Positions 23,427 through 24,813 of a stretch of DNA of 64,000 nucleotides are shown here, piece by piece (positions within the stretch are counted from its first letter, which is position 1; the number at the start of each line of letters is the position of its first letter). Location: the NCBI RefSeq assembly GCF_003076595.1, contig NZ_CP025785.1:774398-838397 (forward strand), given 5' to 3'. This DNA comes from Candidatus Borreliella tachyglossi. GTDB taxonomy: Bacteria > Spirochaetota > Spirochaetia > Borreliales > Borreliaceae. The notes beneath the pieces are model-generated. The model worked only from the letters and a program-made list of their open reading frames with translations, was not told where the DNA came from and made no database searches. A program made the translations under genes and the position numbers.

Positions 23427-24515
23427 ATGCTTAAGAATATTGTCTATATTTCTCTTCCAGAGAATTTTACAAGGCGGATTAAAGATTTCGTGTTCGATCC
23501 TACAATACTTTTGCCTGTTGAGGTCAATAATGTTTTAAATTTTTCTCAAATTGAACTTAATTTTGAGGCTATTATGTCTGCTATTCTCAAAATTTCTGCT
23601 TATGAGAGGGATAATGTTAATTTTCCTTATTATAAAAAGCTTCTCTTAGCTTTAAATCCTAATATTTTTGCTGAACTTATTAATGCTGGATTGATTAAGG
23701 TTGATGAAGGAGATTATAGCTTGGCTCTTGAGATTTTTTTGGCATTAAAAGGTATTGATGATAAAAATGAGATTCTTCTTCTTAATTTGGCATTGTTGTA
23801 TGAGCGGATGGCTGAAAACTTCCTGAAGGCTGAGCAAGGTACGGATGCTCTTCATAGTGATCAAAATGCTTTAAAAATTTATGAGAAACTTTTGGGATTT
23901 AAAAGTCCAAATGAAAATGTGTTTGCAAATGCTGGATTTTTTTTTGTTAGACAGTACAAATTAGATAAAGCTCAACAGTTGCTTAAACATTATTTAAAAA
24001 TTTCTGACAACTCAAGGTTAAAGGGTAAAGTAAGTGAGATTTTAAATGCTATAGGGAATCATGAGAGTTTGGACTTAGGTCTTGAGAGGATATATGATCT
24101 TATTATTTTGTCAAGAGAGGATGAAGCTATTTCTGAACTAATTAGACTTTTAAAGTATAATGAGGGATTGTGGAATGCTTGGTTTTTGCTTGGGTGGGGA
24201 TATAGAAGGAAGGGGTTTTATTCTGAAGCGAAGGACGCTTTTCTTAAGGTATTATTTCTTGACTCTAAGAATGTTGATGCTATGAACGAGCTTTCAATCT
24301 GCTTTATGGAACTTTTGGAGCTTGATGATAGTCTTAAGTATTTACTTAGAGCTTTAAAGCTTGAACCTGATAATGTCAAGATTATTTCAAATCTTGGAAT
24401 TCTTTATTTAAAGATGGAGCACAAGAAAGAGGCTTTAAAATATTTCAAAATAGTGCTTGAATATGACCCTAAGGATTCCCTTGCGCTTAAATATTTGGAA
24501 CTTTTAGATAAATAA
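23427..24515 (+). CDS. TPR-repeat protein of unknown function
   Basis: The roughly 362-residue cytoplasmic protein has tetratricopeptide repeats, clearest in the C-terminal half: WNAWFLLGWGYRRKGFYSEA, then DSKNVDAMNELSICFMELLEL, then EPDNVKIISNLGILYLKMEH and ending with EYDPKDSLALKYLEL. TPR arrays mediate protein-protein contact; no enzyme domain is visible. The ATG at 23427 is chosen over an in-frame ATG at 23403 because GAGGA precedes it by a few bases and the earlier start lies inside plzA. Being just after plzA, it could act with c-di-GMP signalling, which is inference only. Its last 29 bases overlap the truncated Sua5 gene tail to tail. Confidence 0.8.
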   Translation: MLKNIVYISLPENFTRRIKDFVFDPTILLPVEVNNVLNFSQIELNFEAIMSAILKISAYERDNVNFPYYKKLLLALNPNIFAELINAGLIKVDEGDYSLALEIFLALKGIDDKNEILLLNLALLYERMAENFLKAEQGTDALHSDQNALKIYEKLLGFKSPNENVFANAGFFFVRQYKLDKAQQLLKHYLKISDNSRLKGKVSEILNAIGNHESLDLGLERIYDLIILSREDEAISELIRLLKYNEGLWNAWFLLGWGYRRKGFYSEAKDAFLKVLFLDSKNVDAMNELSICFMELLELDDSLKYLLRALKLEPDNVKIISNLGILYLKMEHKKEALKYFKIVLEYDPKDSLALKYLELLDK

Positions 24516-24813
24516 TTTTAGTTTGTGCTTTGTAGGTTATAGGACCCGGAGTAAATTTTTGCAGTAGGATTAACGCACTACTGGGGATATACTCTACAAG
24601 TTCTCTTATTCTTTCTATAGAATCGACATGCACTATTAAAGGATTTGTAATAGGTCTTTTCTTTACTAAAAAAAGCATCCTTACCGCAGAATCACTGTAT
24701 GCATCAGCTCCAATGCCATATACTGTTTCTGTAGGGAATATCACTAGCTCTCCCTCTCTTATAAACTGTGCGGCTTTTTCTATCTCTGAGGATTCTATTA
24801 TTACTGTCTTCAT
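24487..24813 (-). pseudogene. Truncated Sua5/TsaC/YrdC threonylcarbamoyl-AMP synthase
   Basis: Sua5/TsaC makes threonylcarbamoyl-AMP, the first step of the universal tRNA modification t6A. The 108-residue product starts normally (EKAAQFIREGELVIFPTETVYGIGADAYSD, with KKRP and NPLIVHV substrate-loop residues) and reaches the conserved KFTPGPIT, then runs into unrelated residues and stops. A working YrdC domain is about 180-200 residues and needs the following segments, including the R-x-P and SAN-SG motifs, which are absent. The junction lies antisense to the end of the TPR gene, so a deletion probably removed the 3' half. Either this is a pseudogene with a copy elsewhere, or a short form survives. 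Confidence 0.75.

Follow-up and report, generated by a model that had tools for sequence, protein, structure and literature searches.

A truncated sua5 gene in the chromosome assembly of Candidatus Borreliella tachyglossi

Sua5 in the Borreliaceae and elsewhere

Sua5 makes threonylcarbamoyl-AMP (TC-AMP), the first intermediate of N6-threonylcarbamoyladenosine (t6A), a near-universal modification of tRNA. The full-length reference gene has 333 codons, and its product is L-threonylcarbamoyladenylate synthase (TIGR00057 / PF01300). In profile searches, every one of 148 Spirochaetia genomes with a completeness of at least 97% has a PF01300 match above the cut-off, and a complete PF01300 domain in a long open frame is present in all 35 of the other Borreliaceae genomes. 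The subject of this article is the sua5 locus of Candidatus Borreliella tachyglossi, at which the gene is cut short. An earlier comparison gives a Sua5 indel as N/A for “Candidatus Borrelia tachyglossi” and scores it for B. turcica (PMC6306154, Table 2). The locus lies in a 64,000-nucleotide stretch of the chromosome (NZ_CP025785.1, positions 774,398 to 838,397 of the forward strand), referred to here as the window, and window positions are used throughout.

Three kinds of described Sua5 are closest to this case. The chromosomal Sua5 of other Borreliaceae has the same locus, start and N-terminal motifs, and shares 69–84% amino acid identity over codons 1–93; in contrast, codons 94–333 and the stop codon are intact in those 35 genomes and deleted here. 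Plasmid-borne Sua5 paralogues of the Borreliaceae belong to the same family and exemplify a possible kind of back-up, although none was found in the assembly examined here. Finally, Sua5 of Archaeoglobi also shows C-terminal erosion, but there it is the SUA5 domain that erodes (PMC10321239), whereas in the present case the loss extends to over half of the catalytic domain.

An apparent deletion within chromosomal sua5

The open reading frame (ORF) at 24487–24813 of the minus strand encodes 108 amino acids, of which the first 93 are Sua5 codons and the last 15 are unrelated. Its match to PF01300, the YrdC-type domain, reaches 90 bits (cut-off 25.1) but covers only positions 2–79 of 178, while its score against the NCBIfam equivalog TIGR00057 is 101.2 bits, under the cut-off of 123.2. 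A full-length Sua5 from a relative, used as a query against the whole assembly, recovers residues 1–95 only. A preliminary description of the window had reported a truncated Sua5/TsaC frame at this position, and the truncation is borne out. However, the loss is larger than the C-terminal half of the YrdC domain proposed there, since it amounts to ~240 of 333 codons and takes in the whole SUA5 domain.

Comparison with other Borrelia, as that description had advised, locates the break precisely. Junction spacing was compared across ten relapsing-fever-group loci. From the stop codon of the neighboring TPR-repeat gene to sua5 codon 93, the distance is 730–751 bp in these ten relatives versus 19 bp here; in the relatives, a spacer of 2–25 bp sets the stop codons of the two genes apart. 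The missing stretch is thus ~720 bp long and corresponds, close to exactly, to sua5 codons 94–333 plus the stop codon. The junction itself falls within the 19 bp beyond the TPR stop, not antisense to the end of the TPR gene as first described; it is the read-through tail that runs antisense. When the conserved genes of the window were compared with those of three relatives, sua5 was the sole clear truncation. If the assembly is right, this is a clean single deletion in sua5 that leaves the spacer and the neighboring genes untouched. Such a mutation is in itself ordinary gene loss, and would matter more widely only in the absence of a further copy of the gene. The features concerned are listed in Table 1.

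Table 1. Features of the sua5 locus and of tsaD, in window coordinates.
Feature	Position	Strand	Basis
TPR-repeat protein gene, intact	23403..24515	+	Pfam TPR families; 371-codon frame as in genome G005
Read-through tail of 15 codons plus stop, non-homologous	24487..24534	-	ORF list and alignment; end antisense to last codons of TPR gene
Deletion junction	24516..24534		Distance from TPR stop to codon 93, against ten relatives
Sua5 codons 1-93, homologous remnant	24535..24813	-	Alignment to intact relatives
RlpA-like divergent neighbor (DPBB and SPOR domains), intact	24943..25725	+	Pfam; adjoins sua5 in relatives too
tsaD, 344 amino acids, intact and constrained	62400..63434	-	PF00814, 287 bits; 81-86% identity in 17 genomes; pN/pS 0.16-0.18

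Alignment of the remnant to relatives shows that Thr28, Lys51-x-Arg53, Asn57 and His62 are kept, and alignment to solved Sua5 structures equates Thr28 and Lys51-x-Arg53 with T33, K56 and R58 of the Pyrococcus abyssi enzyme. The equivalents of S143 and N145 (the SxN motif), S181 and R195 (P. abyssi numbering) are absent, all of them lying in the deleted part together with the gate loop (PG...HY) and the SUA5 domain. On what is known of the family, the 108-residue peptide should be without TC-AMP synthesis, since only half of its ATP/threonine site remains and both the gating loop and the SUA5 domain have been lost.

The remnant nevertheless carries few marks of a pseudogene. Pairwise pN/pS (the ratio of non-synonymous to synonymous differences per site) and private changes were scored over codons 1–93. 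Against intact relatives, pN/pS is 0.21–0.23, compared with a baseline of 0.28 for intact copies of the reptile-associated versus relapsing-fever groups, and of the 44 sites that do not vary among the other 17 members of the genus, only one has changed. In other words, required residues have been lost, but neither a raised pN/pS nor an excess of changes at invariant sites is seen. Candidatus Borreliella tachyglossi forms a long, lone branch between the relapsing-fever and reptile-associated groups, and an undecayed remnant on such a branch indicates that sua5 was maintained for nearly its whole length. To judge from these comparisons, the deletion is either very recent or not real, that is, an assembly error. 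The preliminary description had listed, as one of three options, that a deletion here has been tolerated. A clean deletion agrees with this, but long-term tolerance is not supported, as the remnant shows no decay.

Other Sua5 copies and the rest of the pathway

The genome searched comprises 1,097,749 bp in six contigs, with ~160 kb outside the chromosome. A genome-wide check for a second YrdC domain had been recommended, and the profile search found no second PF01300 match in the six contigs; with a single match, another YrdC-domain enzyme of the YciO or HypF type can be ruled out as a stand-in. Similarly, the C-terminal 241 amino acids of Sua5 from a close relative (G016) gave no match in the assembly at E ≤ 10, while each of the six control genomes was strongly matched by the same query. 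This rules out a split gene with its C-terminal half elsewhere in the assembly. The earlier suggestion that another Sua5 exists therefore fails for the assembly searched, which leaves unassembled plasmids as a possible source.

The other genes of the pathway are in good order. As previously described, tsaD is intact, as are tsaB and tsaE, and the constraint on all three (pN/pS) is about that seen in relatives.

A possible plasmid-borne back-up

The explanation tentatively favored is that the deletion is real and that a full-length sua5 on an unassembled plasmid may well stand behind it. A single ~720-bp deletion would have removed codons 94–333 and the stop codon of the chromosomal gene to leave a very young null allele, and TC-AMP would still come from an intact gene carried by a plasmid that the assembly lacks. 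Supply from a plasmid appears the most likely arrangement because the remaining t6A genes are intact and normally constrained. It is also plausible because plasmid copies of sua5 occur in the Borreliaceae and because plasmids are under-represented in the assembly, whose six contigs hold only ~160 kb of non-chromosomal sequence. The clean junction with sua5 alone affected, the lack of a second YrdC domain in the assembly and the undecayed remnant fit this reading too. The published assembly of “Candidatus Borrelia tachyglossi” was built from Illumina data on an engorged tick and is described as incomplete, particularly with respect to plasmids (PMC10481545). If such a copy exists, a normally chromosomal core gene would now be carried by a plasmid alone, making that plasmid essential.

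Additional sua5 copies are found on lp44 of Borrelia sp. RT5S, on lp5 and lp21 of strain B31, and on a 32-kb plasmid of B. turcica IST7. The lp44 copy (L132 8001–9002) encodes a second Sua5 that is 98% identical to the chromosomal one and keeps all motifs. Next to it lie genes for ParA and partition functions, and this phage-like plasmid encodes a DNA adenine methylase as well as a tape measure protein. A core gene has thus been copied to the plasmid recently. The Sua5-like proteins of B31 lp21 (L129 2887–3876) and lp5 (L130 3340–4329) are identical to each other and, given the motif changes described below, may be misannotated as L-threonylcarbamoyladenylate synthase. A short piece of a Sua5 C-terminus is also present on lp21. 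RT5S further possesses, ~2 kb from its intact chromosomal sua5, a degraded stretch resembling the Sua5 C-terminus (G014:C1:790676–790828, minus strand; E 5e-4) with several stops, which may be left over from an earlier duplication.

Several observations weigh against a plasmid back-up. No plasmid sua5 copy is seen in the six-contig assembly; the RT5S plasmid in particular has no match there, which rules out its presence as far as the assembly goes. Moreover, plasmid copies are not reliably functional, since the B31 proteins have lost the KxR arginine and the IST7 copy (L126 3273–4350) contains a frameshift and a stop. The B31 copies read KKK where KxR is expected and are without the gate-loop motif, making them doubtful models of a working back-up. 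Finally, none of the relatives with a plasmid copy has lost its chromosomal sua5.

Alternative explanations

A first alternative, possible although on the unlikely side, is an assembly artefact or minority allele. Here, the chromosomal sua5 would be full-length and the gap a product of mis-joined short reads, to which a plasmid copy of nearly the same sequence may have contributed. The 93 N-terminal codons do resemble a working gene, nothing is missing from tsaB, tsaD and tsaE, and the assembly was probably built from Illumina reads alone, from one engorged tick (PMC10481545). On the other hand, the length of the spacer is normal, sua5 stands alone in the window in being clearly truncated, and no direct repeats flank the break, either in relatives or in the window. 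An assembler jump across a direct repeat is accordingly rejected on the relatives and the junction, the organism's own deleted sequence not being open to inspection. General decay or poor local assembly is likewise unsupported by any other clear truncation in the window. A “stop” in the methionyl-tRNA synthetase gene, suggested by a family search, was also dismissed, as the gene is unbroken and its 726-codon frame open. If the gap is an artefact, part of a core gene is missing from a public reference genome.

The second alternative is a real deletion with no other copy, such that t6A has just been lost and its loss is tolerated via a eukaryote-type isoleucyl-tRNA synthetase (IleRS). This is unlikely. 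The type of IleRS may decide the need of a bacterium for t6A, and no spirochaete is known to have lost the modification. The IleRS here is eukaryote-type by bit scores, with 951 bits against a eukaryotic cytoplasmic enzyme, 761 against that of Thermus thermophilus and 322 against that of Staphylococcus aureus. The modification is not essential in T. thermophilus (the source of the 761-bit enzyme), Deinococcus radiodurans, Synechocystis and Streptococcus mutans (PMC7694415), and the lack of a further PF01300 gene in the assembly also fits with loss. Conversely, the presence of PF01300 across the Spirochaetia argues for a strong need, and tsaB, tsaD and tsaE are not relaxed, though a very young loss would leave no such sign. 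Less probable again is the specific case of a naturally t6A-free spirochaete that has just lost its TC-AMP synthase, has kept TsaB, TsaD and TsaE, and tolerates the loss through its eukaryote-type IleRS. Were the deletion real and no plasmid copy present, a wild bacterium would have been caught just after losing t6A synthesis, and it could be asked of it whether possession of a eukaryote-type IleRS releases a bacterium from its need for t6A. A t6A-free state would capture the opening step in the loss of a near-universal tRNA modification.

What probability remains beyond the plasmid back-up, the artefact and the loss of t6A falls, approximately, to other explanations. Among these, the earlier idea that the 108-residue short form still functions, alone or in complex with TsaD, TsaB and TsaE, is very improbable: its pN/pS is low and every N-terminal motif is kept, but a young deletion explains this conservation more simply, four of the seven residues required for catalysis are missing (SxN, Ser181 and Arg195, reported as required in yeast Sua5; PMC10321239), 15 non-homologous residues have been appended, and no separate C-terminal half is encoded as a partner.

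The neighboring TPR gene

The TPR gene beside the deletion occurs at this locus here and in genomes of the relapsing-fever group, and was not found at the sua5 locus in five reptile-associated genomes or in Borreliella. The pattern is one of lineage-specific gain or repeated loss.
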